Assembly: GCF_006483455.1 (NCBI RefSeq)
Contig: NZ_PPPU01000013.1
Coordinates: 62,001-126,000, forward strand
DNA: 64,000 bases
Direction of reading: 5' to 3'
Source: Methylomonas koyamae
GTDB taxonomy: Bacteria > Pseudomonadota > Gammaproteobacteria > Methylococcales > Methylomonadaceae
The translations under genes and the position numbers were made by a program. Shown here in pieces: positions 1-16,997 of this stretch (position 1 is the first letter of the stretch; every line of letters begins with the position of its first letter). The notes under the pieces were generated by a model, which saw only the letters and a list, made by a program, of their open reading frames with translations, was not told where the DNA came from and searched no databases.

Positions 1-33
1 AGACCATCGTAACCGCTATGACTCATTAATCAA

Positions 34-111
34 CCCCGCAAGGGAGGTTCGCTTCCCTACCGGGGGCGCACGCCTTCTATTTCGGGAGTCACTCTTAAAT
101 CAGGAGGCAGT
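34..111 (+). promoter_or_regulatory. Structured 5' leader A
   Basis: The first of ten related leaders. A CCCC/GGGG outer helix (34-37 with 62-65) encloses a seven-pair helix (41-47 with 52-58) closed by a TTCG tetraloop. Further on, GCCTTCT (72-78) can pair over seven positions, one of them G-U, with AGGAGGC (102-108), which holds the Shine-Dalgarno sequence of the ATG at 112. The third pairing seen in other copies (5' hairpin with anti-SD) is weak here. Confidence 0.6.
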
Positions 112-1053
112 ATGTACCAACAGTATTCCGTCGCCGATACCTTCGGCGTATCCGCACCGGCCTCGATGACCGTCGAAGGCTTTGTCCCGGCAAATAATCC
201 ATTCGTGCCGGTCCAAAAACCGTATGTGTTTCGGCGCGAGCCATTGCGCGACGTCCTGGCGTTCTTTCGGAATCCGAATGGCGATGGACTGTATATCACC
301 GGACCCACGGGCTCCGGTAAAACCTCGTTGGTTGAGCAAGCCGCCGCCCGCTTACACTGGGGTGTGCATGCCGTTGCCGGTCATGGCCGGCTTGAGTTCA
401 ACGATTTGTTGGGCCAATTCGTCTTAACCGGCAACGGCACGATGAAATGGACCGACGGCCCGTTGACCAGCGCCGTGCGCCACGGCCACGTGCTCTTGCT
501 CAACGAAATCGATGCGACCGACCCGGCCGAGTTGCTGGGTTTGAACGATATCGTCGAAGGCAAACCGCTGATGATTGCGGCCACCGACGAAGTCGTCATG
601 CCGCACCCGAAGTTCCGTCTGGTTGCAACCGGCAACAGTGCCGGCGCCGGCGACCAGTCGGGCTTGTATCAAGGGGTGATGCGTCAAAGCGTGGCCTTTA
701 TGGACCGCTTTCGTTTGATGGAAGTGGGCTATCCGGAACCGGACGACGAAATGAGTATGCTGGAACGCACGGTCCCGACCATGCCCCTGAGCATTCGGGA
801 ACGCATGATTCAGCTGGCCAACGAGATCCGCAAGGTCTTTATTGGCGGCAGCGATTCGTCTGGTCTGCTCTCGATCACCATGTCGACCCGCAGCTTGTTG
901 CGTTGGGCCCAGCTCAGTGCCAACTACAAAGGTTCCCCGAACGCCCTGGCCTATGCCTTGGATCGGGCGCTGGTTCTGCGGGGGGATGCGGCCGAACGCG
1001 AGGCCATCCATCGGTTGGCGCAAGACGTGTTCGGCAGCGATTGGCAGGTGTGA
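112..1053 (+). CDS. MoxR/CobS-like AAA+ ATPase
   Basis: A 313-residue AAA+ ATPase. It has a Walker A motif GPTGSGKT at residues 64-71, a Walker B segment HVLLLNEID at 126-134, a sensor-1-like VATGN at 171-175 and a DRF near 198-200. This arrangement resembles MoxR and the CobS subunit of cobaltochelatase, which remodel a partner carrying a VWA domain; a VWA protein is encoded at 2897-4660. There is no CobN-like chelatase subunit in the window, so cobalamin synthesis is unlikely and a plasmid-specific remodelling role is more plausible. The start follows a strong AGGAGG. The stop lies one base before the next gene, so the two are probably co-translated. Confidence 0.85.
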   Translation: MYQQYSVADTFGVSAPASMTVEGFVPANNPFVPVQKPYVFRREPLRDVLAFFRNPNGDGLYITGPTGSGKTSLVEQAAARLHWGVHAVAGHGRLEFNDLLGQFVLTGNGTMKWTDGPLTSAVRHGHVLLLNEIDATDPAELLGLNDIVEGKPLMIAATDEVVMPHPKFRLVATGNSAGAGDQSGLYQGVMRQSVAFMDRFRLMEVGYPEPDDEMSMLERTVPTMPLSIRERMIQLANEIRKVFIGGSDSSGLLSITMSTRSLLRWAQLSANYKGSPNALAYALDRALVLRGDAAEREAIHRLAQDVFGSDWQV

Positions 1054-1054
1054 C

Positions 1055-1510
1055 ATGTCGGTGCTGTATTGGCAAGTCGAATGCCGCGCACCGCAACCGG
1101 TCGTCTTTGCCGTAAACCACGCCTTACATCAGTGGCGATCTTGTATCGACCGCTGGCAGCAAGACCTTGGTTTGAGTTATGTGGGTTGGCCGGATTGGGA
1201 CTCGCTGCTGCGTTTAAGTGAAATCGGCCGCGGCTTTGACACCAGCGGCCAAATACACCCGGAACACGGCATTGCCCCCTGGTTATGGCTAACGGCGTTG
1301 AAAAAAGCCGGCTTCGTCGGCATCGACGTGGGCATTGTCACCGATGCGTCTCGCGAAACCTCGACCAACTTACACCAGGAATCCGAGGTGTTACAGCTAT
1401 TCGGTACCGACCTAGTGCAGATCCGGCCTGTGGCTGAAGCGCTAGGCTTGCTGTTGCCGTCCTTGGATCTGGTTGCCGCTTTAGGCGAAATGGACAGTGA
1501 CTGGTTTTAA
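1055..1510 (+). CDS. Hypothetical protein, partner of the AAA+ gene
   Basis: A 151-residue protein I do not recognise. It is soluble and rich in Trp and Leu, with no signal peptide or membrane segment. The ATG at 1055 follows the upstream stop by one base and there is no leader of its own, so it is probably translationally coupled to the AAA+ ATPase and may act with it. An upstream in-frame extension exists but would lie inside the ATPase gene, so the coupled start was preferred. Confidence 0.65.
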   Translation: MSVLYWQVECRAPQPVVFAVNHALHQWRSCIDRWQQDLGLSYVGWPDWDSLLRLSEIGRGFDTSGQIHPEHGIAPWLWLTALKKAGFVGIDVGIVTDASRETSTNLHQESEVLQLFGTDLVQIRPVAEALGLLLPSLDLVAALGEMDSDWF

Positions 1511-1533
1511 CCGGTCACGGTTTTTACTTTTTT
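1509..1533 (+). terminator. Weak terminator-like hairpin
   Basis: AACCG (1509-1513) and CGGTT (1518-1522) form a five-pair stem with a GTCA loop, followed by a T-rich run interrupted by AC. It begins inside the stop codon of the upstream gene. The stem is short, so it may be only partly effective. Confidence 0.35.
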
Positions 1534-1557
1534 GAACCCGCCTTTCAACAGGCTTTA

Positions 1558-1620
1558 TCAACCCGGAAGGGGCTTACACTGCCCTCCGGGGCTGTCGTAG
1601 GCCTCTTTTAAGGAGGCACT
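1558..1620 (+). promoter_or_regulatory. Structured 5' leader B, SD-sequestering switch
   Basis: CCCGG (1562-1566) pairs with CCGGG and the inner AGGG with CCCT. GCCTC (1601-1605) pairs with GAGGC (1613-1617), burying the AAGGAGG Shine-Dalgarno sequence before the ATG at 1621. AAGGGGCTTAC (1567-1577) can instead pair with GTAGGCCTCTT (1597-1607) over eleven positions, including two G-U pairs, which would free the ribosome site. The two states are mutually exclusive, so this is the clearest switch of the family. Confidence 0.72.
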
Positions 1621-2814
1621 ATGACGCAGTGTAATCAAATATTGGACCGTGTGGTCTTGATCAAAATCCAAGCCAACATCTACGGCGCGCGGAAAAAATT
1701 GCGCAAAGAAGATCTGGTACTGGCCGACGGCAGTGAATTACCGCCCGAGGACTTGGCCAGCTTAGGCTCGAAACGTTTGCTCGATCCCGACCAGTTGGCG
1801 GACTTCAATCGCTTGAAAAAAGCGGCGGAACGCCACTGTTTACGGGTCGGCACCCGCTTCATGGGCGGTTTTGTGGTGCCGGTCGAACACGCGGACGCCA
1901 TCGTGAGCGAGCTGGAAAAAGTCGCTCAGGAATTCGTGGTTAATAAAGCGAAGTTCCTGGCCGGCTACGACGACGCCGTGCGCGATTGGATCAAAAAGCA
2001 TCCGAGCTTTGCCGGCATTATCGAAAAGGCGATCGACCCTATGGCGTACGTGGCCACGAAGTTGGGTTTCGACTTCATGGTGGTCGCCATCCGACAACCG
2101 GAAGCCTCCAGCCAGAAAGATGTGGCACGGCTGGAACAGCAAATCGATTCGATCGGCGGCCAGTTGTTTCACGAAGTGGCCAACGACGCCGAGTTATTGC
2201 TGGAACAATCCTTGATCGGAAAAGATCAGGTCACCCGGAATGCGTTGCGGCCGATTAAGCGGATTCGCGACAAACTGGATGGCTTGAGCTTTTTGGATTA
2301 TCGCGTGGCACCGATCGTCACCTGGATCGATGGCGTACTGCAAGAAATCCCCAATCGCGGCGCGATCGAGGGGGCCTTGCTGCAGGAGATCATGGCAATG
2401 ACCATGCTATTGGCCGATCCCGACAAGCTTCGCCGTCACGGTGAAGGCTTGTCGTCGAACCCGTCCAAGGTAACGAACGACGAAGACGCGGATGACGTGT
2501 TGTCGTCAGGGCATCCGGCATCGCCGATATCGGCAGCCGTGCTCGCCCCAGTGCAAACCAGCCTGCTCGAACCGAAGGAGCCGCCCATGGTGGACCCGGA
2601 CGATCTGTTTGCCGGCTTGTTAGACGATCTGTTTACCGACGATGACGGTGAAGGCGAAGCTCACTCCTTTGCCGACATCGCTTCGCGGCCGGCTCTGCCC
2701 GTTGCAACGCCAGCGTTGGCTGCGCAAGCGTACGGATCCGACAACGAACCAGAAACCCACGGCACCGACGAATCCGAACTACCGGCGGAAGCGGTTACCG
2801 AATTCTGGTTCTAA
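1621..2814 (+). CDS. DUF3150 family protein
   Basis: A 397-residue protein. Its first half (for example LDRVVLIKIQANIYGARKK near the start) resembles DUF3150, a family of unknown function often found beside MoxR and VWA genes on conjugative elements and in phages; this assignment is from recall. The last 130 residues are acidic, Pro- and Ala-rich and probably disordered, ending in FWF. It is soluble with no signal peptide. It lies between the AAA+ ATPase and the VWA protein, each with its own leader, and probably works with both. The ATG is placed by the adjacent AAGGAGG. Confidence 0.75.
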   Translation: MTQCNQILDRVVLIKIQANIYGARKKLRKEDLVLADGSELPPEDLASLGSKRLLDPDQLADFNRLKKAAERHCLRVGTRFMGGFVVPVEHADAIVSELEKVAQEFVVNKAKFLAGYDDAVRDWIKKHPSFAGIIEKAIDPMAYVATKLGFDFMVVAIRQPEASSQKDVARLEQQIDSIGGQLFHEVANDAELLLEQSLIGKDQVTRNALRPIKRIRDKLDGLSFLDYRVAPIVTWIDGVLQEIPNRGAIEGALLQEIMAMTMLLADPDKLRRHGEGLSSNPSKVTNDEDADDVLSSGHPASPISAAVLAPVQTSLLEPKEPPMVDPDDLFAGLLDDLFTDDDGEGEAHSFADIASRPALPVATPALAAQAYGSDNEPETHGTDESELPAEAVTEFWF

Positions 2815-2825
2815 GCGTTTTTTAA

Positions 2826-2896
2826 TCACCCTATCGGGGCAATGCAACACGCCCCTCGTGGCTGTGGCTTGCCCCTTGTTTTTTAAGGAGCAAGCC
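2826..2896 (+). promoter_or_regulatory. Structured 5' leader C
   Basis: GGGGC (2836-2840) pairs with GCCCC (2851-2855). GGCTTGC (2866-2872) pairs perfectly with GCAAGCC (2890-2896), which overlaps the AAGGAG Shine-Dalgarno sequence of the ATG at 2897. GGGGCAA (2836-2842) can instead pair with TTGCCCC (2869-2875), breaking the inhibitory helix. Confidence 0.68.
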
Positions 2897-4660
2897 ATGC
2901 ATCAAACTTTAGAACGCGCGTTTCCCATTGTGGCGGCCGCGATCGGCAACCGCTTTGGCATTTCGGTCGCGGTCGGCGGTACTGAAGCCTACACCGACGG
3001 CCAATCGATACAACTACCGGGCTACAACGGGTCCGATCCGCAGTACCAGAACTACGCGTGGGGCTATCTGGCCCACGAAGCGGCGCATGTTCGGTATTCG
3101 GACTTTCAGCTCGATTTTGGTGACTCGGTCCTGCGCCGGCGCCTCTGCAACGCGATCGAAGACGTGCGCATTGAGCATGAACTGGCCAAGGTCTATCCGG
3201 GCACCCGCTTGACCCTGGCAAGGATGGTGGAACAGATGTTGACCGAAGGTCGCTTAACGGCCCAGACCGCATCCGATCATCCCGGCAATGTCCTGTTCGG
3301 CTACATTCTGAAACGGCTTCGGGCCAAGGTGTTGGGTCAAACGATACTCGAACCCTTAGTCGACGCCACCCGAGAGGCCTTGCGTGCATGTTTTCCACGC
3401 GGCACTTTGATTCGCTTGGAAGGCTTATTGTCGGAAGTACCGGAGGGTTTAACCTGTGAACGCGACTGTCTGGATCTGACCGATCGGATTTTGGCGATGC
3501 TCGAAGAGGAATGTGCGAAACCAGCGGCTACCGCGTCTGACGACCAGTCGGATACGGACCCGGAGGATGACAACACCCGTCAATCCGACACGGACTCGGC
3601 AAAGGACGATCAACCCTCGTCCGATTCGGACGCAGAGAACGAGCAAAACGGCAGCAACCCGGAAGATTCTGCACCGTCCGATCAGGACGGCGACCCCGGA
3701 AACGGTTCGGCGAACTCGCCCAACCCACCATCCGGAACTGAGGAGCCGGCCAACCAAGACAGCGCGGAGCGAACGTCCTTAATGGACCAGCTCAACACGC
3801 TATCCGAGCAAGACCTGGAACAGGATTGGTTCGAGACGGCGAAATCGCAACTGGGTTTGGCGCCGGATTCGGCCGGAAAATGTACGCTACCGGTCGGGCT
3901 GTTTCCGAAAGGCAGTCGGCTAGTCGGCCAAGCTTTGGCAAACCGGGTGGAGCAGAACAGCAAAGCTCTGCGCGTCGCGTTGCAAAGTGCGGTGCAATCC
4001 CACCGCCAAAATCGGCCGCAAGCCGTGCGAAACGGTCGGCGTATTGATCCTCGCCGCTTAACCAAACTCGCGTTGGGCGATACACGGGTGTTTTGCCGAT
4101 CCAGGCAGCGAGTTGCGCCCAATTGTGCGGTGCATATCTTGTTGGACAAATCCGAAAGCATGGGCGAAACCCTTGTCATTCAGGGCGAAAAAGTGAGCTT
4201 GCTGACCCTGGCCCTGGAAGCGTCGATGGCCTTAGTCCTTGCGCTGGAGAGCATTCAAGGCGTCAATCCGGCGATCACCGCCTTTCCCGGCGCCGACGAT
4301 GACTCGGTGCACCAGCTGTTAAGGCACGGCGAAAAAATCCGCGACAGTTTGGGACGTTTTTCGGTATTTTCGGCCTATACCACGCCGATGACGCAAGCCG
4401 TTTGGTTTGCCGCGGCGCAATTGCTGCAATGCCGCGAACCGCGCAAACTGCTGCTAATGGTGACCGACGGCGTACCCAACGATTTACCGGGCACGCTGTC
4501 GATCTTAAAGCGTTGCCGTGACAGCGGCATCGAAACCCTCGGCATAGGCTTAGGGGTGGAGGTCGGCCATTTGTTTCCGGTCGCTCTCACCATTCATAAC
4601 CTGACTGAATTGAGGCCTCAGCTGTTCGCACTGTCCAAAGCCATGCTATTGGCGGCGTGA
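2897..4660 (+). CDS. CobT-like VWA protein with HEAAH motif
   Basis: A 587-residue protein starting at the ATG behind leader C; an 85-residue upstream extension overlaps the previous gene and lacks a ribosome site. The N-terminal part carries LAHEAAHVR (HEAAH, residues 60-64), a zinc-peptidase-like motif. An Asp/Ser/Asn-rich acidic linker covers roughly residues 210-300. The C-terminal third is a von Willebrand A domain with a MIDAS motif DKSES (417-421) and a VTDG segment near 521. This layout is that of CobT-like proteins that pair with CobS/MoxR ATPases, one of which is encoded at 112. Without CobN, a cobalt-insertion role is doubtful. The HEAAH could be catalytic or structural. Confidence 0.82.
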   Translation: MHQTLERAFPIVAAAIGNRFGISVAVGGTEAYTDGQSIQLPGYNGSDPQYQNYAWGYLAHEAAHVRYSDFQLDFGDSVLRRRLCNAIEDVRIEHELAKVYPGTRLTLARMVEQMLTEGRLTAQTASDHPGNVLFGYILKRLRAKVLGQTILEPLVDATREALRACFPRGTLIRLEGLLSEVPEGLTCERDCLDLTDRILAMLEEECAKPAATASDDQSDTDPEDDNTRQSDTDSAKDDQPSSDSDAENEQNGSNPEDSAPSDQDGDPGNGSANSPNPPSGTEEPANQDSAERTSLMDQLNTLSEQDLEQDWFETAKSQLGLAPDSAGKCTLPVGLFPKGSRLVGQALANRVEQNSKALRVALQSAVQSHRQNRPQAVRNGRRIDPRRLTKLALGDTRVFCRSRQRVAPNCAVHILLDKSESMGETLVIQGEKVSLLTLALEASMALVLALESIQGVNPAITAFPGADDDSVHQLLRHGEKIRDSLGRFSVFSAYTTPMTQAVWFAAAQLLQCREPRKLLLMVTDGVPNDLPGTLSILKRCRDSGIETLGIGLGVEVGHLFPVALTIHNLTELRPQLFALSKAMLLAA

Positions 4661-4746
4661 GCGGTTAGGTGACTTGAATCGTGTCGATGCGTGGCCAGAA
4701 CTTCATTCTTGATGAAGTCCTGCCCGTATCGACACCCTTCCCTATT

Positions 4747-4832
4747 GCACGCCCGGCCGGATCGGGCTACAGTGGGTGCGTGCGATATCAGCCGGTTTTT
4801 TCATGCGTCGTCCGCGACGGGACATGAAAAAA
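4747..4832 (+). other. Structured RNA-like region without an obvious gene
   Basis: GCACGCCC (4747-4754) can pair with the GGGTGCGTGC further on. It is followed by a long hairpin: TTTTTTCATG (4796-4805) with CATGAAAAAA (4823-4832), and an inner CGTCG/CGACG stem with a TCCG loop. Its position and composition resemble the other leaders, but only a 36-codon reading frame follows. It could be a leader for a tiny gene, an orphan leader left after gene loss, or a small RNA. Confidence 0.4.
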
Positions 4833-4934
4833 TCGACTTCATGCGTTCTTTCGAGAATGCTGATTCCGGCTTCTGCCGGCGTTCCGTCTTCAGGCGGCGA
4901 GCAAAATCCGTTTTGCTTGTATCGGTTGCGTTAA
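4824..4934 (+). CDS. Possible 36-residue peptide
   Basis: A small frame beginning MKKSTSCVLSRML and ending at a TAA at 4932. The ATG lies in the 3' arm of a strong hairpin, and the only upstream purine tract (ACGGGAC) is a weak ribosome site. It is supported only by the structured region before it, which resembles leaders of real genes. No family is recognised. Confidence 0.22.
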   Translation: MKKSTSCVLSRMLIPASAGVPSSGGEQNPFCLYRLR

Positions 4935-4970
4935 TGCCGATCCTTAATCGGGCTTGTTACAAGCCTTTAT

Positions 4971-5048
4971 CCATCCCGCTTCGGGCGCCACCGCCCGAAC
5001 CGGGTCGTGCGTTTGAAGCATGTTCTTCCATTGCGGAAGGAGGTTTCA
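4971..5048 (+). promoter_or_regulatory. Structured 5' leader D
   Basis: CCCG (4975-4978) pairs with CGGG (5001-5004) around an inner TTCGGGCG/CGCCCGAA helix (4980-4987 with 4992-4999). CTTCC (5025-5029) pairs with GGAAG (5035-5039), covering part of AAGGAGG before the ATG at 5049. GCTTC (4978-4982) can pair with GAAGC (5015-5019). The long release pairing seen in leaders B and G is not obvious here. Confidence 0.58.
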
Positions 5049-5555
5049 ATGCACTTCATTTTAGGCACCATCATTCTTGCCCTATTCATCCTGGCCATCC
5101 GGGTGATCTGGCATACTCTCAAGTCCGCCCGGCTCTGGTTTAGCCAGCACTGGGCGTTATGGCAAAGCGCACGCTTGCGCCAAGCTTCGGTAATGCCTGC
5201 CCTACTACCACCCCGCTTTACCGCACAAAACAGCCTGCCGGCAACGGATTGGGAAACCTTATCCCAAACCGTAAGGCAGGGTATTTTGGAACGCAACAAC
5301 CGTCCGACCTACCGGCTCGAAGCACTCGATATCGAGCTGCAGGTTAAACAGAAAACCCAAGCGATTATGCTTGCGGACATTGAAATAGCCAATTTGCAAC
5401 TCAGTTTGGCCGAAACGCAGGCGTTGCTCGCACAACCGGCGAAAAAGCGCCGCAAAACGCAGGTGGAAGGACCGGCTAAACGGCCGAATCCAGTCTCTGA
5501 ATTGCGCAAAGCGCTTGGCAGCGGCAAAAGTACCCCGCATTCGGCCGTACATTAA
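5049..5555 (+). CDS. Single-pass membrane protein, unknown
   Basis: A 168-residue protein starting MHFILGTIILALFILAIR, a single N-terminal membrane segment, followed by a basic cytoplasmic part. Residues about 90-130 look alpha-helical and may form a coiled coil; the C-terminus is Lys/Arg-rich. No family is recognised. The ATG is fixed by a perfect AAGGAGG six bases upstream and by leader D. Confidence 0.65.
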   Translation: MHFILGTIILALFILAIRVIWHTLKSARLWFSQHWALWQSARLRQASVMPALLPPRFTAQNSLPATDWETLSQTVRQGILERNNRPTYRLEALDIELQVKQKTQAIMLADIEIANLQLSLAETQALLAQPAKKRRKTQVEGPAKRPNPVSELRKALGSGKSTPHSAVH

Positions 5556-5562
5556 TCGGCGG

Positions 5563-5916
5563 TCAGTGCAGCCTGGTATCCGAAGGCAGGTGGAATACGT
5601 TGTTGCTCTTCAGTTCCCGCTCGATATCGAGCCCGAGCTGAGGCGCAATCTCAACGATCGTCTCCTGCCGGAGCGTGCGGATGCGGGCTAACAGCGGTCC
5701 TGCAACCTTGGGATCGCGCAGCTTGATTAACACACCGACTTCGGCATCGTTCAAATCCGCCAGGATTTTTCGATACAAATCGAAGTGGCGTTTGCCGGGC
5801 CCCACCAGAATCGCCATTGGTTTTGGTTCGGGTTGCGGCCTGGGTTTAGGTGGTGGATCGATGATTCGATCCAGCCACTTCACCCAGTTCACTAATCGGG
5901 TCACTATCGGGTTCAT
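5563..5916 (-). CDS. Hypothetical protein, opposite strand
   Basis: A 117-residue frame on the minus strand, ending eight bases from the convergent gene at 5555. It has a Pro-rich stretch (about residues 20-33) and a helical C-terminal half rich in Leu, Asp and Glu. An AAGG precedes the start at moderate distance. It lacks the leader found before the plus-strand genes. Codon use looks genuine, but no family is recognised. Confidence 0.5.
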   Translation of the reverse strand: MNPIVTRLVNWVKWLDRIIDPPPKPRPQPEPKPMAILVGPGKRHFDLYRKILADLNDAEVGVLIKLRDPKVAGPLLARIRTLRQETIVEIAPQLGLDIERELKSNNVFHLPSDTRLH

Positions 5917-6008
5917 CGTCGTACCTTGAAAAAAGGAAGCGTACGCAGACCTTACAACGACTTATTTAAAGTGCAACCGTTTGCCCGCGCGGCCGGCGGT
6001 TTTTTATT

Positions 6009-6069
6009 CACCCTGGCGGGACTCCATCCTGCAGGGTGGCGGTTCCCGCCGATCACGGAGGGTATTGCT
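6009..6069 (+). promoter_or_regulatory. Structured 5' leader E, pseudoknot
   Basis: CACCCT (6009-6014) pairs with AGGGTG (6033-6038), and GGCGGGA (6015-6021) pairs with TCCCGCC (6044-6050). The four segments interleave, which is the topology of an H-type pseudoknot. ACCCT (6010-6014) could alternatively pair with AGGGT (6059-6063) at the GGAGG ribosome site of the ATG at 6070, so a switch is also possible here. Confidence 0.62.
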
Positions 6070-6651
6070 ATGTCATTCTTACCAGCTCCGGTTTCGGAGA
6101 TTCTGTATCTGAACCAATACCGTTGTCCCTATTGCCAGATCGAATGGGACGACGAATGGAATGGCGCCTGCAACGACCGTTGCCCATCGTGCAATGCCGA
6201 AATCTCACCTTACCACAGCGAGGTGCTGACCGAGGAGAACCCATCACCGGCCTACGCCGTGACGTACACCCTCGATTACAAGCACCGGGTGGTGGTCGGC
6301 ATCGTCGCAGAGTCGGCAGACGGCGCGCAAGCGGTTGCCGAAGCCGCCTTCGACGACGGTACCATCTGGGACGACACCCCGGAAATGCCGCTGTTGTTCG
6401 ACGACTTCGAGGAAGTCGACGGCAAAACCCTGCGTTGGCAGGTCGAAGCGGTCGACGTCTGGCCCAAGGCCGATGCCTCGGTGGTGAAGCTACGTCAAGA
6501 ACGCACCGCGATGGCGGTGTGCCGCGGTCTGATCGACGCCTACCAGCGCGGTAAAGATGCCGGCGGCAGTATCGATTGGGACGATTTGGACCAATTGTTA
6601 ACGTTAGCTAAACAAGCACTGGGGTTGTCTGATTCAGACCCAGCCGCTTAA
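6070..6651 (+). CDS. Zinc-ribbon protein, unknown role
   Basis: A 193-residue soluble protein. Near the N-terminus it carries CPYC followed about 18 residues later by CPSC, a likely structural zinc ribbon. The middle is acidic with several Trp, and the C-terminal 45 residues are helical. No family is recognised. The ATG at 6070 is preferred over upstream in-frame starts because of the GGAGG and leader E. Confidence 0.65.
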   Translation: MSFLPAPVSEILYLNQYRCPYCQIEWDDEWNGACNDRCPSCNAEISPYHSEVLTEENPSPAYAVTYTLDYKHRVVVGIVAESADGAQAVAEAAFDDGTIWDDTPEMPLLFDDFEEVDGKTLRWQVEAVDVWPKADASVVKLRQERTAMAVCRGLIDAYQRGKDAGGSIDWDDLDQLLTLAKQALGLSDSDPAA

Positions 6652-6696
6652 ACATCCTTCGGCTTTTCGCGGTATCCGCGGCGAGCCTCATTATCA

Positions 6697-6758
6697 ATCC
6701 CTGCGGGAATGTCTGTTCCCGACCGGGGCGTGGCATTCCCCTTTTTTTGGAGAATGTC
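6697..6758 (+). promoter_or_regulatory. Structured 5' leader F, SD-sequestering switch
   Basis: CGGGAA pairs with TTCCCG inside a CCC/GGGG outer stem. GGCATTCCCC (6732-6741) pairs with GGAGAATGTC (6749-6758), which contains the ribosome site. GGGAATGTC (6705-6713) can instead pair with GGCATTCCC (6732-6740) over nine positions. Leader H before 9301 has nearly the same sequence. Confidence 0.7.
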
Positions 6759-8528
6759 ATGAGAGACCCCTTTCAATATTATGCCTCGACGGAAGCGCTG
6801 AGTATCCGGGCTTGGGCAAAGTTCAGGGACACCAGATTTGTGCGGGTCCTGGATCCATCGGCCGGCGAAGGGCATTTGCTCAAAGCCAAGCCATTCAAAC
6901 AGTACCAACGGGTACCGATTGATTGCGTCGAAATCGACATCCGTAAGCATGCCGTGTTGCGGGAACAAGGCTACACCGTGGTGGGCTTGGATTTCCTGCA
7001 GTTTCAAAACGGCAGCGGTTACTCGCACTGCATTATGAACCCGCCCTTTGCAGCCGGTGCTCAGCACGTGCTGAAGGCATGGGACATCATGTTCGACGCT
7101 GAAATCGTCGCCATTCTCAATGCCGAAACCCTACGGAATCCGTTTTCGAAAGAACGCCAGCTGTTAGTGCGTTTGATCGAACAGCATGGCGAGGTGGAGT
7201 TCTTATCGGACATGTTCGCCGGCGAGGATGCCGAACGCAAAACCAACGTCGAAATTGCCCTGATCTGGTTGAAAAAAACCTCAACCTTTGAACGGGACAT
7301 TCTCGGCAATATTCTGGACGACTTGCGCCAGGATCGAAGGGAAGCGGAGGAGTTGGCCAGCGCATTTCATGTGCCTCATGAATTGGCCTTACCTACTGCT
7401 TTTATCGATAACGCGGTATTGATGTTCGATGCCGCGTTTGAAGCCACACGGCAGGCTGTATTCAGTGAAGCCCGTGCCAGCCGCTATCGAGCCATGCTGG
7501 GCAAAACCCTTGGCGAGCTGAGTGGTGGCGGGCTACACACTGTAGACGATTCGTCATTGGATGCGGTGAAGCAGACGCTATTCGAACGGTATCAAGATCT
7601 GAAAAATCGAGCATGGAGCAACATTCTGCGTTCGACTCAGGTCACGTCACGATTGTCATCGACGGCGCAAAAACGTTTGGAATCGGATTTCGAAACGATC
7701 AAGTCTTTGGAATTTACCGTAGCGAATATTTACGGCTTTCTGCAAGGCATCATCGATCAGCAAGGTGAAATTCAACTGAGCATGGTCTGCGATGTGTTCG
7801 ATCTGATCACGCGCTACCACAGCGACAATGCAGTGTATTACATGGGGTGGAAATCCAATGATAAACACCGCACGCTGGGGATGCGGATCAAGACCACACG
7901 CTTTGTACTGCCAGGGCATAAAGTCGAGTCCTACCACACAGGTCTTGACTGGAATTCGGAGCAACTTCTAGCCGATTTCGACAAGGTATTTGCCTTGCTC
8001 GACGGCAAGACCGAAGCGGAAGTGAGTTTGGTATCGGTGTTTAGGCAGCATTTCAGTGCGCTTAAGCAGGGTGAGCGGATCAGCAGTAATTACTTTGACG
8101 TTCGCTACTATCCGGGCGCCGGAACCATCCATTTTTTTCCGAAAAGCAAAACCTTGATCGACCGCATGAACCGTTGGGTTGGCTGTCGGCGACGTTGGTT
8201 ACCCCCGGTGGATACCCAAGCCGGTCCAGGTTTCTGGCAGCAGTTCGATCAGGCGGAATCGCTCGATCGGGCGTTTCATGCCGAGGTGAATAAACAGTGT
8301 CCAAGCGGTACCAGACACTTACGCTTCGATCCCTTTTGGGCCATCAAATACGGCGGCGAGTCGGAACGGGAACAAGGCAACACCCTTTTAACCCAGGCGA
8401 TGAGCACGGTGCTGGCCAGCCGTGGGATCGATCCGGATGCGATGTTGACGAATGAACCCGCCAACCGCAATTTGCTGGAATGGATTGATTCCTTGGAGTC
8501 CACTCAAGATCTGCCTTTGGCGTCGTAA
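6759..8528 (+). CDS. DNA methyltransferase with DUF4942-type C-terminus
   Basis: A 589-residue class I SAM-dependent methyltransferase. Motif I is DPSAGEG (residues 32-38) and the catalytic motif IV is NPPF (94-97), the form typical of N6-adenine or N4-cytosine DNA methylation. The long C-terminal part has the look of DUF4942, a domain often fused to plasmid and ICE methyltransferases (from recall). No restriction nuclease lies next to it, so it may be an orphan methylase that protects or marks the element. Translation starts after GGAGAA behind leader F. Confidence 0.8.
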   Translation: MRDPFQYYASTEALSIRAWAKFRDTRFVRVLDPSAGEGHLLKAKPFKQYQRVPIDCVEIDIRKHAVLREQGYTVVGLDFLQFQNGSGYSHCIMNPPFAAGAQHVLKAWDIMFDAEIVAILNAETLRNPFSKERQLLVRLIEQHGEVEFLSDMFAGEDAERKTNVEIALIWLKKTSTFERDILGNILDDLRQDRREAEELASAFHVPHELALPTAFIDNAVLMFDAAFEATRQAVFSEARASRYRAMLGKTLGELSGGGLHTVDDSSLDAVKQTLFERYQDLKNRAWSNILRSTQVTSRLSSTAQKRLESDFETIKSLEFTVANIYGFLQGIIDQQGEIQLSMVCDVFDLITRYHSDNAVYYMGWKSNDKHRTLGMRIKTTRFVLPGHKVESYHTGLDWNSEQLLADFDKVFALLDGKTEAEVSLVSVFRQHFSALKQGERISSNYFDVRYYPGAGTIHFFPKSKTLIDRMNRWVGCRRRWLPPVDTQAGPGFWQQFDQAESLDRAFHAEVNKQCPSGTRHLRFDPFWAIKYGGESEREQGNTLLTQAMSTVLASRGIDPDAMLTNEPANRNLLEWIDSLESTQDLPLAS

Positions 8529-8610
8529 TTAAGCCTCTTTAGCAAAATATGTTCTGCCGACGTTGACCGTCGTCAGGCATCGCTGACGAGGCTTTGAACA
8601 TTTTTGATAA

Positions 8611-8680
8611 CCCTTCCGGAGAAAGTCCACCCCGGAAGGGGACGGCTTTCTCCACGTTTTAAGATTCCGGGAGAAAGCCC
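8611..8680 (+). promoter_or_regulatory. Structured 5' leader G, SD-sequestering switch
   Basis: CCCTTCCGG (8611-8619) pairs perfectly with CCGGAAGGG (8632-8640). GGCTTTCTCC (8644-8653) pairs perfectly with GGAGAAAGCC (8670-8679), hiding the ribosome site. GGAGAAAGTC (8618-8627) in the first hairpin can pair with the same GGCTTTCTCC over ten positions. The first hairpin thus carries a near copy of the Shine-Dalgarno segment and competes for the anti-SD strand. Confidence 0.74.
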
Positions 8681-9154
8681 ATGTTATTCATTCGAGGAAC
8701 CAATAATCGTTATCGTATGGCCGATGAACAGGATGTCATCTTGGAGGCCATTCAGATCTACAACCGCACGTTCAGTCGAGGCGAAGCCTTGACCAGTCCG
8801 GACGATGCGAAGGACTGTATCAAATTGAAGTTGGCGCCATACGAGCACGAAGTATTTCTGTGTTTGTTCTTGGACAATCAACATCGCGTTATCGCTTGCG
8901 ATGAATTGTTCCGGGGGACGATTGACGGCGCTAGCGTGTATCCGCGCGAAGTGGTCAAAGTTGCGCTGCGCCATAATGCGGCAGCTCTGATTATGGCGCA
9001 TAACCACCCGTCGGGGATTAGCGAACCTAGTCGGGCCGATCGCGCGATTACAGCAAAACTTAAAGAAGCCTTGGCCTTGATTGACGTTCGCGTACTTGAT
9101 CACTTCATCGTCGGCGAAACCGTGTATTCATTCGCTGAGCATGGCTTATTGTGA
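8681..9154 (+). CDS. radC: RadC family JAB/MPN protein
   Basis: A 157-residue protein with the JAMM signature: Glu in HEVF near residue 57, HNHPSG at 107-112, then Ser117 and Asp120. It matches the C-terminal metalloprotease-like domain of RadC and lacks the N-terminal helix-hairpin-helix of the chromosomal form. Short RadC proteins like this are common on plasmids, ICEs and prophages, often near anti-restriction genes; their reaction is not settled. Leader G precedes it, and GGGAG sits before the ATG. Confidence 0.88.
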
Positions 9155-9217
9155 AAAGGTATTGGCGTCAAGCTTACTCCTCGATTAAGCCAAAGACCGA
9201 CCCTATTTTAAGTTAAC

Positions 9218-9300
9218 TACTGGTCTCACCAGTACCTTACCCTGCGGGAATACCTGTTCCCGACTGGGGCGTGGTGTTCCCGCTTCAACTGGAGAACATC
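9218..9300 (+). promoter_or_regulatory. Structured 5' leader H with extra hairpin
   Basis: A perfect seven-pair hairpin TACTGGT/ACCAGTA (9218-9234) precedes the leader. CGGGAA/TTCCCG forms hairpin 1. GGTGTTC pairs with GAACATC beside the GGAGAA ribosome site (9291-9296). GGGAATACC (9246-9254) can pair with GGTGTTCCC (9273-9281) over nine positions. Compared with leader F, the changes TGTC to TACC and GGCA to GGTG keep the pairing. Confidence 0.7.
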
Positions 9301-9924
9301 ATGCGAAATCCCATTATTGAACAGACCAGTCACGGAAAGACAGTTCGCTATCAGCGTCTGCCGTCCGGCACCTGTTATCACGAGGACACACGACAAGACG
9401 TCATCGATCTACTTGAGGAGGTCCAGGGTACGCAACGGAAAATCCGTTTGTACTATGGCGACCCGGCAACGGGACAGTCCTGGTTCGACGAGAACGATGT
9501 CATCGGCCGAATCGGTCGATCTAGCGGCAACATCAAGGTGCCGTTGCTGATCGAACCCGGTGAAATCGGTGGTCCGGCTATTTTGGACCACTGCATCGTG
9601 CGGATTGACAGTCCGTTTCGGACCCTTTACCAGCACCCGACCTTTCGGGTCGGCGACGTTGCCATCCAAAAAGGGGTCCACGTCGATTATCCGTGGTCGG
9701 TCACGATCGACGGCCAAGTCCATGCTGGCTTTGTAAACAAACGGCGGGCAAATGCGTTTGCTGCCTTCATTCAAGGCCAACGCTTTGCCTTGCCCGTCGA
9801 CAAGCACGGGTTAATCGAGTGCGAAAACGACGATTTACCCTGGCAAGTTTGGGTGAACGACCGGCAGAAGGCCGCTTTTTTGTCTGAAGCTGAAGCGACG
9901 CGGTATTGGCACGCACTGCAGTAA
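9301..9924 (+). CDS. Conserved plasmid/ICE hypothetical protein
   Basis: A 207-residue soluble protein. The segment around IRLYYGDPATGQSWFDEND and the following GRIGRS resembles a protein I recall from many conjugative elements, of unknown function. The C-terminal 70 residues hold a second small module with several Trp and basic residues. The ATG is placed by GGAGAA behind leader H. Confidence 0.65.
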   Translation: MRNPIIEQTSHGKTVRYQRLPSGTCYHEDTRQDVIDLLEEVQGTQRKIRLYYGDPATGQSWFDENDVIGRIGRSSGNIKVPLLIEPGEIGGPAILDHCIVRIDSPFRTLYQHPTFRVGDVAIQKGVHVDYPWSVTIDGQVHAGFVNKRRANAFAAFIQGQRFALPVDKHGLIECENDDLPWQVWVNDRQKAAFLSEAEATRYWHALQ

Positions 9925-9950
9925 CCGGGCGCGATTGACATTGTATTTAA

Positions 9951-10012
9951 CCCCGACGGGTACCCTACCCGTTTGGGTGAGGCTTGTCGGGACATTTTCT
10001 GAGGAGAAAACC
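9951..10012 (+). promoter_or_regulatory. Structured 5' leader I
   Basis: ACGGGT (9956-9961) pairs with ACCCGT (9967-9972). CCCGAC can pair with GTCGGG (9986-9991). TTTTCT (9995-10000) pairs with AGAAAA (10005-10010), leaving GAGG in the loop, so the ribosome site is at the tip of a small hairpin. The arrangement differs in detail from leaders B, F, G and H. Confidence 0.58.
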
Positions 10013-11986
10013 ATGACAGACCACCGACAAATCCCTGGCGATGCCATTAAACGCACCGTACAGCAATCGTTGACAAACCGCGACTGGATCGCACTTGACA
10101 GTGTGGCCATTGCCACCAAGTGCTACGCCACCGCGGTCGGACCGAAGAAAGCTTATGTCTATTTAACCCTTTGGGGATGCGAATGGGTATTGACGGCCGA
10201 CTATGAAAGTCAAGGTCGTAACATCCTGGAGCCTCTCCGCGTGACTGTGCCTGACACGGCCGATGTTGAAGATATTCGGCATTGGACGGTCAGGTTTTCG
10301 GAGGAAATCGACGCAAGGGTAGCTGAAAGCTACGCCGTCCGTCTGATCCGGAACCAACCGCAAAAGCGGCCCTTCCCGCTCGGTATCACCGTGGCAACGC
10401 CCGGTGCGGTAGCCCTGCTGCAAAAGACGCTGCTCGATCCAGGCCACTTGCTCTCACGCCACGCCTGCGGCGATTGGGGTGATCTATGCGACGAGGATCG
10501 TGCATTAAACGAAGCCGCATTGGCAGAAGGCGGACGGTTGATGTCGGTTTACCAAATTTCCGGACAGGACACCGTCTGGGTCATTACCGAACACGCCTTT
10601 GGCGTCGGTTTTCTATCCGCGATCTTCGCCTGCCGGCACCTGGGGTTATCCAGTAAAGGCGGGTGTTTTTCGGTCGATACCGATCATATCCTGGGGTTTC
10701 AACCGGTGGAGGTTTCGCCGGTGACCGATTGGAACGGTCTGACCGAAATCCGGCTGGTCGATATCGACCCAGGTAAACTCAAAAATACCCTGGAGGAATT
10801 AGCGGCCGGTTTTCCAATTCCGGTGCATTTTAACGGAGTCTCGCTACCGCGACCCAACGCCATCGATTCTATCGGGGCGGCGGAGTTTGTGGCATCGCCG
10901 GTCGGCGAAATTCGCTTGATCAACCTGATCGATTCGTATCGGTATTACCGGGATTGCTTGGTGTATTTGCAAGGCCTACCGGTATATCGAGGCCACTATT
11001 ACCGTATCGGAGACACCAGCCACCTTGGCAATATCGTGCATCTGGATAGCGCTCAATTCATGGCCCGCTTACCGGATCGCGACAAATTGGTGGATGAAGC
11101 CGATGTGATTAAGCTGATCCATGAGGCGATCGCCGCGGCGGTCGAAAGCCAGCTCATGGCACTGAAAACGGCCTTGAGCGCGGACGATTTCCTGACCTAC
11201 TACCCGGTGCTACGCGAGTGCGGCTTGATACACTTACTCAACGATGTCGACCAACTGCCCAAAGCGCTAGTCTCCCGCATCCAACGGCCGCCGGTCTGCG
11301 ATACCGACCTGTTTGGCGACTTTCTGGAAATGGTTGACCAACCAATTACCCAGTCCGCCGTCAAAAGCGGACAAGTGCAATTGGTGACGATTGACGACGA
11401 TCTCCAGTCCGATGGGGCCTTGCGATACCTGCTGGCTTGGAAAAAGGGCTGGGTGCTTATCGATAACCGATTCGACGCCGGGCATTGGGTACAGCCCTAC
11501 CTGCGGCACTTGAGCCAAGAAGAAGTGCGGAGTGAGATCCTTGAGGAGTCACATCGCGCGCAATTTCAAGGCATCTGGGTTTGGGTGACCGCGGTGTTTT
11601 GCCGGGCTTACCGGATTCGGATCGGCGCCGATAGTGTTGATATCGACGCACACGGTGCTTATACCGGCAACGAGCAAGACGATATCGTCCTGATTCCCTG
11701 CCAGGAAAAGTGGGGTGACGTGCTGGAACAGGTGTCGCGTTTCTGCGAGAACGACGATGACTATCAAGGTTCCTGTCACGATCAGGACGTCGAGCAATTC
11801 GGCTGCTTCATCGTGGCGAATACCGCCGATGATCCCGCCGACGCGTTGAAACGGCTGATGCCGGATCTAACCGGATGCAAAGTGTTGCACGGCAACCGAT
11901 TCGTGGTGGAGATTGCCCCTGATGGACATCTGGCAGCCGTTTCGATAGCGGAACACGCTTTAACCGACCTCGAACGGCCGTCATGA
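10013..11986 (+). CDS. Chimeric plasmid protein with GHKL-like segment
   Basis: A 657-residue protein. Residues about 115-190 match what I recall of the short plasmid-related protein family (PLGITVATPGAVALL, then HACGDWGDLCDED and VWVITE), usually a free-standing protein of about 100 residues. Directly after VWVITE comes AFGVGFLSAIFACRHL, which looks like the G2 box of Hsp90/GyrB-type GHKL ATPases, and the rest could be the tail of such an ATPase. The N-box and G1 box expected before it are missing. The simplest reading is a fusion by deletion of two adjacent genes. The frame is open throughout and has leader I, so it is probably expressed. Confidence 0.65.
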   Translation: MTDHRQIPGDAIKRTVQQSLTNRDWIALDSVAIATKCYATAVGPKKAYVYLTLWGCEWVLTADYESQGRNILEPLRVTVPDTADVEDIRHWTVRFSEEIDARVAESYAVRLIRNQPQKRPFPLGITVATPGAVALLQKTLLDPGHLLSRHACGDWGDLCDEDRALNEAALAEGGRLMSVYQISGQDTVWVITEHAFGVGFLSAIFACRHLGLSSKGGCFSVDTDHILGFQPVEVSPVTDWNGLTEIRLVDIDPGKLKNTLEELAAGFPIPVHFNGVSLPRPNAIDSIGAAEFVASPVGEIRLINLIDSYRYYRDCLVYLQGLPVYRGHYYRIGDTSHLGNIVHLDSAQFMARLPDRDKLVDEADVIKLIHEAIAAAVESQLMALKTALSADDFLTYYPVLRECGLIHLLNDVDQLPKALVSRIQRPPVCDTDLFGDFLEMVDQPITQSAVKSGQVQLVTIDDDLQSDGALRYLLAWKKGWVLIDNRFDAGHWVQPYLRHLSQEEVRSEILEESHRAQFQGIWVWVTAVFCRAYRIRIGADSVDIDAHGAYTGNEQDDIVLIPCQEKWGDVLEQVSRFCENDDDYQGSCHDQDVEQFGCFIVANTADDPADALKRLMPDLTGCKVLHGNRFVVEIAPDGHLAAVSIAEHALTDLERPS

Positions 11987-12273
11987 CCTCGAAATTCGTC
12001 TTCGACGCGCAAACGCTGGATACGGAGCCTGGCCATCCCGAGTCGCCCTTTTCGCCGCCGGCGGATTGGACGGGCGACGACGACGCCTATTTGACCTGGC
12101 TGAGAAGCCAATTCAAGGCCAGTCCTTGGGTTAGACAACGGTTAGGTTTGGCGGCCAGACGTTACGCAAAACAACAGCCTTTAGACTTTCGAGGCCGGTT
12201 CGGCGCGCTATTGCCGACTGTCCTCGATAGCATTCTGAGGAAAATACACGCCGAGCAGTCTGTCGGCGATTAA
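11983..12273 (+). CDS. Small hypothetical protein
   Basis: A 96-residue protein whose ATG overlaps the previous stop (ATGA), implying translational coupling. The N-terminal 35 residues are Pro-, Asp- and Ser-rich; the rest is basic and helical and could bind nucleic acid. No family is recognised and it has no leader of its own. Confidence 0.6.
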   Translation: MTSKFVFDAQTLDTEPGHPESPFSPPADWTGDDDAYLTWLRSQFKASPWVRQRLGLAARRYAKQQPLDFRGRFGALLPTVLDSILRKIHAEQSVGD

Positions 12274-12276
12274 CCC

Positions 12277-12310
12277 CATCCCCCTGACGATCGCGTTAGG
12301 GGGATGTTTT
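12277..12310 (+). terminator. Rho-independent terminator
   Basis: CATCCCCC (12277-12284) pairs with GGGGGATG (12299-12306), followed by TTTT. It lies directly after the operon ending at 12273. Confidence 0.7.
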
Positions 12311-12339
12311 AACGCTTAACGCGATTCAATCGCAATCCG

Positions 12340-12415
12340 CCCGGACGGGAAACAGCTTCCCGGTCTGGGGGCTTGTTTTCCCGACGGTTTTTCATAACAA
12401 TTCGAGGAAACCAGC
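12340..12415 (+). promoter_or_regulatory. Structured 5' leader J
   Basis: CCCGGAC (12340-12346) pairs with GTCTGGG (12363-12369) around an inner GGGAA/TTCCC stem. GGTTT (12386-12390) pairs with AAACC (12408-12412) across the GAGGAAA ribosome site. GGGAAA (12347-12352) can pair with TTTCCC near 12377-12382, with bulged T residues if extended. Confidence 0.62.
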
Positions 12416-13048
12416 ATGAACACACACTCTCCACACTCTACGGAACCAGCGATGACGTTACAATCCAGCGAGTCTTTCATGACCGAGGCGCAATACCTCG
12501 CGAGCGAGCGCGTGTCCGAAACTAAACACGAATATCTCGATGGCCGGGTTCTGGCCATGGCCGGCGCGAATCACAACCATTCGCGGATTTCAGCCAACGT
12601 GCTTGGCGAGTTTCGCAGTCATTTAAAAGGCCGGCCTTGCGAGGCGTTCATGGCCGATACCAAGGTGAAAGCCGGTCAGAACTACTTTTATCCGGATGTC
12701 GTAGTGGATTGTACGAATGCGGCCGGCGATGAGGATTTTCTAACGTCGCCCCTGCTGATTGTCGAAGTGCTATCGAATTCGACTCGTAAAATCGATACCA
12801 CTAAAAAGTTGCTTTACTACATCAATATTCCAGCACTTGAGGAATATGTGCTGATCGAACAGGATATCGTCTCGATCATCGTGATGCGCCGGAAACGCGA
12901 CTGGCGTTCGGAGTATTATTATCTGGGGGATCACGTCACGTTCGATTCGATTCAACTGACCTTGTCCGTGGAAGCGATTTACGAGCGCGTGGACAATGAC
13001 GATCTAATACAATTTGAACAGGCGAAGTTTGATACCGATCATCAATAG
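12416..13048 (+). CDS. Uma2 family putative nuclease
   Basis: A 210-residue protein of the Uma2/DUF820 type, a PD-(D/E)XK nuclease-like fold. The conserved elements are HEYLDGRV near residue 38, YPDVVVDC at 92-99 (PD) and LIVEVLS at 114-120 (EVL). The family is very common in cyanobacteria and filamentous bacteria, and its substrate is unknown. The start at 12416 is preferred over two internal in-frame ATGs because GAGGAAA and leader J precede it. A strong terminator follows. Confidence 0.82.
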   Translation: MNTHSPHSTEPAMTLQSSESFMTEAQYLASERVSETKHEYLDGRVLAMAGANHNHSRISANVLGEFRSHLKGRPCEAFMADTKVKAGQNYFYPDVVVDCTNAAGDEDFLTSPLLIVEVLSNSTRKIDTTKKLLYYINIPALEEYVLIEQDIVSIIVMRRKRDWRSEYYYLGDHVTFDSIQLTLSVEAIYERVDNDDLIQFEQAKFDTDHQ

Positions 13049-13213: not shown

Positions 13214-13600
13214 CTAACCGCTCAACAAATTCCAGTTATTCGGCAAGGCTACTGCAGTTATTACAATAAAATTGTCGGTGTGAGGCATGTATATGGCAAT
13301 GCAGTGAGGGTACCCGTCCGGCATTTCTGCCAACATAATGAACTCGGTAAGAAAAATGGCCTTGATAGGCTCGACTGTTTTGTATTGAAAATGTTTTTTC
13401 TCGATTGCTGCATCGTTATATTCGTTAAAAATGGCATCAAGGAATCGTTCTGTCGGAATCAACTCTGCTCTCCTATAAGTCGGCCGGGACACTCCAAAGC
13501 CTTGGATAACAGTGCATACTAAAAACAAAAAAATGCAACACAGAACCAAAATAGTGGTCATAGCCACATAACAATACTCAACAACGACCGTCGCTACCAC
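13214..13600 (-). CDS. Membrane-anchored hypothetical protein
   Basis: A 128-residue frame from a GTG at 13600. An alternative ATG at 13561 would give 115 residues starting MTTILVLCCIFLFLVC. One hydrophobic N-terminal segment suggests a membrane anchor or signal peptide; the rest looks like a small globular domain. No family is recognised and no strong ribosome site marks either start. Confidence 0.45.
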   Translation of the reverse strand: MVATVVVEYCYVAMTTILVLCCIFLFLVCTVIQGFGVSRPTYRRAELIPTERFLDAIFNEYNDAAIEKKHFQYKTVEPIKAIFLTEFIMLAEMPDGYPHCIAIYMPHTDNFIVITAVALPNNWNLLSG

Positions 13601-15909: not shown

Positions 15910-16176
15910 ATGAAGACCTCACGATTTAGTGACAGCCAGATTCTGTCGATTTTGAAGCAAGCGGAAGCCGGCACGCCAGTACCGGAGATCTGCCGCGAAC
16001 ACGGCATCAGTTCCGCGACGTTTTACAAATGGCGTTCCAAATATGGCGGCATGGATGCGTCCTTGATGGCGCGCCTGAAAGAACTGGAAGACGAAAACCG
16101 GCGGCTGAAGAAAATGTACGCAGAGGAACGCTTGAAGGCTGAAATCATCAAGGAAGCCCTGGAAAAAAAGGTCTAA
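15910..16176 (+). CDS. IS3-family transposase OrfA
   Basis: An 88-residue helix-turn-helix protein ([19 protein letters not shown]) with a C-terminal leucine-zipper-like helix. It ends just after an A-AAA-AAG slippery heptamer at 16164-16170. OrfB lies in the -1 frame with no stop between, so a -1 frameshift would make the active OrfAB transposase. Confidence 0.92.
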
Positions 16177-16196
16177 CGCCATCTTGCCGCCGCGAG

Positions 16197-16997
16197 ATGG
16201 CGCAACTCATGATTCAGGCCAAGCGGGCCAGTCTTCGCTTGGTGTGTTCGGCTTTAGGTATCAGCCAGAGCGGTTATCGCTATCAGTCCAAGCTCTCGAC
16301 GGAAAACGCCGAAATTGCCGACTGGCTGCTACGCCTGACCGACACCCACCGCACCTGGGGCTTTGGATTATGTTACTTGTATTTGCGCAACGTGAAAGGC
16401 TTTCGCTGGAATCACAAGCGGGTCTATCGGATTTATCGAGCGTTGGAACTTAACCTGAGGATCAAGCCCAAGAAGCGTTTAGTGCGGGAAACACCGCGGC
16501 CCTTGGTCGTCCCGGAGCGGATCAACGCCGTTTGGTCGATGGATTTCATGCATGACCAACTCGCTGATGGGCGGGCGTTTCGCTTGCTCAATGTCATTGA
16601 CGACTTTAATCGGGAAGGTTTGGGGATAGAAGTGGATTTCTCGTTACCGGCCCTGCGGGTCACCCGCACCTTGGATCGCATCATTGAATGGCGGGGCAAA
16701 CCCGAGTCGATCCGCTGTGACAATGGACCGGAATATATCAGCGAAACGTTAAAAACGTGGGCTGAGCAACACGGTATTCGGATCGACTATATCCAACCGG
16801 GCAACCCGCAACAGAATGCCTACGTTGAACGCTACAACCGAACCGTGCGCTACGAATGGCTGGCCCAGTACCTATTTGAATCGATCGGGCAGGTTCAGGA
16901 TTTTGCCGAACGCTGGTTATGGACCTACAATCATGAACGGCCCAATATGGCCATCGGCGGAATGACGCCCAAACAAAAATTGGCACTTGCCGCTTAA
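16197..16997 (+). CDS. IS3-family transposase OrfB
   Basis: A 266-residue rve-type integrase domain with DDE residues in [18 protein letters not shown] and [10 protein letters not shown]. The first ATG is 16197, but the frame is open back to the slippery site, and expression as an OrfAB fusion is expected. It looks intact. Confidence 0.93.

Follow-up and report, generated by a model that had tools for sequence, protein, structure and literature searches.

Structured leaders with a shared anti-Shine-Dalgarno strand precede recombination and DNA-processing genes of a Methylomonas plasmid block and of other mobile elements

A 64,000-nucleotide stretch of Methylomonas koyamae DNA (the window; bases 62001-126000 of the 241-kb contig C4, in a genome of 4.54 Mb) opens with a block of plasmid genes in which a first-pass annotation had marked ten structured leaders before gene or operon starts. 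The locus raises the question of why unrelated genes of one element should carry the same kind of leader, and what such a leader could do. All ten leaders are present, and nine of them match, at E<=4e-4, a covariance model (R1) whose training set comprised 48 leaders from 11 elements, including five leaders from the window. Nine of the ten positions originally given for them stand; the remaining one, 9218, belongs to another small hairpin, and the family hairpin of leader 8 lies at 9240-9269. The leaders of the window are as follows.

28-114, plus strand: leader 1, before the CbbQ-type AAA ATPase gene; hairpin 34-65; R1 E=3.6e-4, outside the training set
1556-1623, plus strand: leader 2, before the DUF3150 gene; hairpin 1562-1590; R1 E=3.6e-7, in the training set
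2823-2899, plus strand: leader 3, before the CobT/vWA gene; hairpin ~2828-2862 (by eye); R1 E=1.5e-7, outside the training set
4969-5051, plus strand: leader 4 (deviant); hairpin 4975-5004; R1 E=0.083, with a shifted match at 4969-5022
6003-6072, plus strand: leader 5; hairpin 6009-6038; R1 E=1.1e-7, in the training set
6693-6761, plus strand: leader 6, before the DUF4942 gene; hairpin 6699-6728; R1 E=2.3e-11, in the training set
8605-8683, plus strand: leader 7, before the radC-like gene; hairpin 8611-8640; R1 E=8.9e-7, outside the training set
9234-9303, plus strand: leader 8; hairpin 9240-9269; R1 E=9.1e-12, in the training set
9945-10015, plus strand: leader 9 (deviant); hairpin 9951-9977; R1 E=7.4e-8, in the training set
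12334-12418, plus strand: leader 10, before the Uma2 gene; hairpin 12340-12369; R1 E=3.7e-4, outside the training set

Four extra leaders lie directly upstream of the window, before genes starting at C4 58155, 59268, 60918 and 61510. R1 gave no match at E<=1 for the minus-strand gene at 5563-5916 or for the genes at 1055 and 11983 that touch their predecessors, all three already noted as lacking a leader.

Three-way complementarity in the leaders

Compared side by side, the leaders share one architecture. A hairpin about 60-80 nucleotides (nt) upstream of the start has an outer stem of the form CCC...GGG (P1) around an inner stem of the form GGG...CCC (A:B). A strand just downstream of the hairpin (C) pairs with the ribosome-binding site (D). 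C is complementary also to A, the 5' strand of the hairpin plus its loop. Leader 6 illustrates this: GGGAATGTC (A) and GGAGAATGTC (D), which have GAATGTC in common, each fit GGCATTCCC (C). This supports the earlier description, in which a single family of RNA structures recurs in front of genes of one element that are not related to each other and a second helix covers the Shine-Dalgarno (SD) sequence, and it adds the key feature which that description overlooked: A and D compete for one anti-Shine-Dalgarno strand. It is the third, mutually exclusive helix, A:C, that links the two helices and gives each leader the form of a switch. The closing stem AACCC...GGG and the AA preceding it are strongly conserved, and the loop, C and D are variable.

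To count leaders uniformly, a start was scored as qualifying if its hairpin reached <=-10 kcal/mol, A:C and C:D each <=-9 kcal/mol, and the hairpin lay 48-92 nt upstream. Thirteen of the 14 leaders of the Methylomonas element qualify, compared with 10 of 420 dinucleotide-shuffled upstream regions; the sole exception is that of the gene at 2897 (leader 3), where the hairpin finder picked another hairpin. Over 17 loci, 96 of 217 starts qualify, compared with 80 of 6510 shuffles. Among 93 qualifying leaders (the set without L030, L062, L063, L064 and L065), the footprints of A:C and C:D on C overlap by at least half of the shorter one in 90, and C:D extends to the AUG in 51. C:D pairs at least three of the four nucleotides of the GGAG-like SD core in 85 of the 93 and at least two in 92.

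The first-pass annotation had proposed that the pairings are kept while the sequences differ, and the covariation that this implies is present and strong. Because the GGG/CCC core common to all leaders would otherwise bias the result, we compared each leader's A:C and C:D duplexes with the non-cognate duplexes obtained by combining different leaders from one element (89 of 115 starts, kept by the upstream hairpin alone; L030 and L044, with 3 and 2 leaders, stood outside the test). In the Methylomonas element (G000, n=13), A:C averages -15.3 kcal/mol against -9.1 kcal/mol for non-cognate pairs and C:D -14.0 against -9.0 kcal/mol, with 0 of 20000 permutations as good in either case. Both duplexes are significant also in L027, L029, L042, L043, L045 and L046 (<=20 of 20000 permutations). 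Pooling 178 leaders from 20 loci, of which 12 loci were untrained (8 of the 17 annotated loci plus untrained model loci, groups under four leaders excluded), gave z=-21.4 for A:C and z=-17.7 for C:D against within-locus permutation, and z=-14.6 for the hairpin loop alone with C; the controls A:D and B:D gave z=-2.6 and z=-1.9.

Column-wise scoring of 101 R1 matches from untrained loci points the same way. The modelled structure scored 0.244 against 0.170 (0 of 500 shuffles), in an alignment fitted to that structure, and A:C, which is not in the model, scored 0.299 against 0.250 (1 of 500 shuffles; next register, 0.296). Furthermore, among leaders chosen by their hairpin only, A:C is more stable in the sense than in the antisense strand by a margin exceeding that of non-cognate pairs (p=1.5e-11), as is C:D (p=0.003), and the excess for A:C points to a single-stranded sense molecule.

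Gene context and distribution of the family

The 1-13 kb block holds genes for a CbbQ/CobS-type ATPase, DUF3150, CobT/vWA, DUF4942, RadC and Uma2 proteins. It extends further upstream, where a RecT-family gene, called bet in the annotated relatives, and a YqaJ exonuclease gene lie. Together they form an ssb-bet-exo-ATPase-DUF3150-vWA module that is annotated also on R997, an SXT/R391-family element, and on an IncC plasmid. The genes identified in the window are:

112-1053, plus strand: AAA ATPase with AAA_5 and CbbQ_C domains, CobS/NorQ-like (Pfam)
1621-2814, plus strand: DUF3150 protein (Pfam E=1.7e-95)
2897-4660, plus strand: CobT-like protein with a vWA domain (Pfam)
6759-8528, plus strand: DUF4942 protein (Pfam), its N-terminal region matching PHROGs families, some of them named DNA methyltransferase
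8681-9154, plus strand: RadC-like JAB protein (Pfam E=1e-45)
12416-13048, plus strand: Uma2-family protein, a putative restriction endonuclease (Pfam E=6e-25)

In a plasmid collection, three Methylomonas plasmids match the first 8 kb of the window over the whole of these 8 kb at 94.6-96.2 percent identity and a fourth over 84 percent of them at 79.8 percent; one of the matching plasmids carries a MOBH typing. A promoter scan of the block returned 4 sites against 6.7 expected and was uninformative. Directly downstream, at 15910-16997, two adjacent open reading frames (ORFs) resemble by eye an IS3-type transposase pair.

Searching 147 kb with R1 recovered nine of the ten leaders of the window at E<=3.7e-4, including four from outside the training set (starting at 28, 2823, 8605 and 12334). 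On the whole 4.54-Mb genome R1 gave 14 matches at E<=1, of which 13 fall in the block, where leader 4 was missed. The only match outside it (E=1.4e-5) is the leader of a gene for a 102-aa protein without a Pfam match, on the minus strand at C4 24585-24893 (L003:4585-4893), about 33 kb from the block; the genes that come next on the same strand include DUF1173 and ParB-type genes.

The family extends beyond the plasmid on which it was first noted, to elements of the SXT/R391 and pCAR1 types, to IncC elements and to other islands. Sixteen untrained loci yielded the 101 R1 matches at E<=5e-4 introduced above, all of which end on ATG, 100 of them opening an ORF that is at least 40 aa long or open to the locus end. 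Seven of these sites match a training leader over 45 nt or more, with identities no higher than 89 percent. When 398 genomes sampled from the phylum were searched, R1 matched at E<=1e-3 in 27 genomes, some of which may hold training or related sequences, and these include all nine genomes with DUF3150 over the cut-off. Four genomes (G250, G282, G416 and G418) have three or more R1 matches and no DUF3150 match; the leaders of three of these genomes lie before DUF3577, RadC, DUF3560 and ArdC genes. Named records that bear leaders comprise R997, the IncC plasmid, pCAR1 (an IncP-7 plasmid), and Azospirillum, Azonexus, P. putida, Methylobacter and Marinobacter sequences. Three members precede the same recombination gene:

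L068 10450-10518: R997 bet leader, an R1 training member
L047 11088-11170: IncC plasmid bet leader, R1 E=4.9e-8, untrained
C4 58083-58157: leader of the Methylomonas RecT/Bet gene, an R1 training member

On R997, 6 of 11 module starts qualify compared with 0 of 47 other starts (58 annotated starts in all, mostly skipping genes that touch the preceding one), so the leader marks one gene set rather than the whole element. On pSTY, 0 of 9 starts qualify. On the IncC plasmid (L047), the sequences upstream of the ATPase and DUF3150 genes (~8497-8575 and 13332-13410) are identical as far as the end of the hairpin and over the greater part of C and diverge only at the SD side, which perhaps reflects a recent leader duplication.

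Known RNAs and neighbouring structures

Rfam 15 placed no family over the leaders, either in the window (at the gathering threshold, and at E<=5 for positions 1-13000) or in L029, L042, L046, L081, L083, L084 and L085 (E<=5). The suggestion that they might be the STAXI motif (RF01728) fails on the same searches of the 64 kb and of positions 1-13000. As described in PMC2864571, STAXI consists of two or three tandem copies of a pseudoknot, often with UUCG loops, and lies likewise near SSB, antirestriction and integrase genes. We reject it, as no model matched and each leader has one hairpin and one ribosome-binding-site helix in place of tandem pseudoknots.

A published structure does coincide with one member of the family. 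A 2015 review (PMC4542580) reports a strong translational attenuator upstream of SXT bet, present also in IncA/C, which hinders translation despite high transcription; this is the same gene and place as the leaders of R997 and IncC bet. Its passages on the subject present a single attenuator before bet, with no mention of a family before other genes or of three-way pairing. The caution that similar elements might already be catalogued applies to this one member. As far as our searches of Rfam and the open-licence literature show (most subscription papers lie outside them), the RNA family is undescribed apart from the SXT/IncA/C bet attenuator.

The radC RNA motif (RF01754; Weinberg et al. 2010, PMC2864571) is found in the same kind of islands as the leaders. 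It is a separate upstream structure, whose matches adjoin and never overlap the leaders in L081 and L083, and it has no match in the window (gathering) or in positions 1-13000 (E<=5). Five of the 398 genomes contain 11 radC RNAs: eight are followed by a leader match within 20 nt (one only at E=0.015), one by a match at 127 nt and two by none. One island, L083, has four within 9 kb (3002-3157, 3804-3960, 4928-5086 and 11440-11577), each followed directly by a leader.

In Methylomonas, the place taken by the radC RNA in other islands is held by another repeated element with structure, about 100 nt long, with hairpins around CGTTCCGTCTTCAGGCGGCG and an end near GGGTGCGTCAAnCCC (window 4855-4950, L004 ~17960-18060 and L005 ~725-815). 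It precedes leader 4 and two upstream leaders, hence three of the 14 Methylomonas leaders, and the window copy has no Rfam match (1-13000, E<=5). Further copies occur in L027, L028, L032, L034, L036, L037, L039 and L041. With L028 excluded, 9 of 14 copies are followed by an R1 match within ~150 nt, including one at E=0.083 and one at E=0.058, and the remaining five by a similar hairpin recognised by eye only.

Folding order and possible function

Folds were predicted for successive transcript ends. RNA ending after the hairpin is predicted to form A:B, RNA ending after C to form A:C, and RNA that includes D to form C:D with a re-formed A:B. This order was followed by 74 of 94 untrained leaders, compared with 6 of 94 with C shuffled, and by 12 of 13 tested leaders of the Methylomonas element (7 of the 101 untrained matches and leader 3 having been dropped on the hairpin criterion). 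In a separate folding run on 8 of the 17 annotated loci, the last two steps were seen in 63 and 67 of 73 leaders.

In the finished mRNA, A:B plus C:D would be favoured and the ribosome site hidden; with C held by A, the ribosome site would be free. Since C is transcribed before D, the nascent RNA would pass through A:C and so through a temporary window in which D is free, and refolding would hide D again unless a ribosome or some factor held the leader open. P1 could persist alongside A:C as a pseudoknot. What the computations show is the family and its distribution, the covarying three-way complementarity, the competition for C, the bias towards the sense strand and the coverage of SD and AUG; we infer that the leaders act as RNA on translation, that cells keep them off by default, and that there is a nascent window and possibly a trigger. 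One plan, realised with a different private sequence each time, recurs before the recombination and DNA-processing genes of many conjugative elements, which suggests one kind of post-transcriptional brake. We consider it probable that the leaders are cis-acting, four-stranded translational switches, off by default, which recombination and establishment genes have in common. The best support for an action on translation, and for its negative direction, comes from the review's account of the SXT bet attenuator (PMC4542580) together with the membership of the R997 and IncC bet leaders in the family. Among the leaders themselves, each of ten of the 17 loci has 5 to 14 qualifying private copies. 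In this they differ from the MS2 maturation-gene leader and the hok mRNA, single systems in which translation likewise depends on RNA folding order.

Several observations weigh against this reading. Twenty of the 94 untrained leaders fall outside the folding order, and the folding itself is a nested equilibrium prediction without pseudoknots, kinetics or proteins. Within the window, leader 4 has a strong C:D, but its A:C does not beat A:B in predicted folding, and for leader 9 only 1.6 C:D pairs are expected in the full-length ensemble, yet it was counted as being in order. The first A:C register tried in the covariation scoring was not significant (31 of 500 shuffles), whereas a neighbouring register passed. 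In a coarse fixed-window test, whose windows partly overlap A:B, C:D was not significant in L044, L046 and L030, nor A:C in L030. Mutual information of single columns did not pick out the helices, being uninformative because the registers shift. Mimicry of D by A is significant in G000 and L029 only and not in L027, L042, L043, L045 or L046; it follows that A copying the SD is not general, whereas the shared complementarity to C is. On the contig itself, 9 of 150 ORFs outside the block also qualify (up to 12 start codons tried for each); the gene at C4 24585-24893 with the outside R1 match is not among them. Finally, two enterobacterial plasmids with the same module have no qualifying leaders (0 of 14 starts in L062 and 0 of 12 in L065), so the module works there without the leader. 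Their module upstream regions contain AT-rich stretches with a recurrent TTTAAATCTATTAA-like string, recognised by eye.

The absence of leaders from L062 and L065 despite the same genes is also what one would expect if a factor were missing there, and the strong conservation of the closing stem and its preceding AA, next to a variable loop, C and D, would suit a binding site. A plasmid RNA-binding protein that recognises the AACCC...GGG hairpin and represses or activates, with the private pairing setting the baseline, is accordingly a possible explanation. We regard it as doubtful, since a constant protein site needs no leader-private complementarity between A and C, and the idea comes without a candidate protein.

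Less likely still is that the leaders are transcription attenuators, with A:C and a U-run forming an intrinsic terminator and A:B the antiterminator. A:C is indeed the predicted fold of RNA ending after C, and at least five T within the 9 nt that follow A:C occur in 36 of 96 qualifying leaders, among them all 12 of the Methylobacter plasmid (L029) and 6 of 13 in the Methylomonas element. Against this, such runs follow A:C in 0 of 10 leaders in Azospirillum (L043) and 1 of 14 in P. putida (L046), and a terminator scan of positions 1-13000 was near chance (18 against 15.8). This strong dependence on the element would make termination at most a local addition, and a terminator leaves the private covariation of C with the ribosome site unexplained.

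The leader genes are DNA-processing and establishment genes, and the strand bias alone cannot tell single-stranded DNA of that strand from RNA. The elements could in this case act in transfer as single-stranded DNA, as promoters or protein-binding hairpins, instead of as mRNA leaders. The translational attenuator published for the SXT bet member (PMC4542580) argues against this. So does the pairing of C with at least two SD core nucleotides in 92 of 93 leaders, and we consider the single-stranded DNA reading improbable. Leader-peptide attenuation of the erm/cat type, where a stalled ribosome frees the SD and competing helices decide access to it by a similar logic of mutually exclusive, SD-masking structures, depends on a leader peptide, for which the family leaders give no signal, and is rejected as highly implausible given that a short upstream ORF with an SD ending in the leader occurs in 2 of 96 leaders compared with 51 of 1920 shuffled ones.

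Returning to default-off translational switches, the nascent state with C occupied and D free is the basis for a further, tentative proposal, namely that the leaders might serve as RNA timers. Refolding in the order of transcription would allow translation from fresh mRNA only, giving a pulse of recombination, anti-restriction and DNA-processing genes when a newly arrived or induced conjugative element starts transcription, followed by silence without any protein repressor. The gene content (RecT/Bet, exonuclease, SSB, RadC and ArdC) fits the coordinated expression during transfer or entry that the first-pass annotation had envisaged. The private copies of one switch within each element would represent a natural example of orthogonal RNA design, and the leader family, if it is a switch, may decide when the recombination proteins of plasmids and mobile islands are made.

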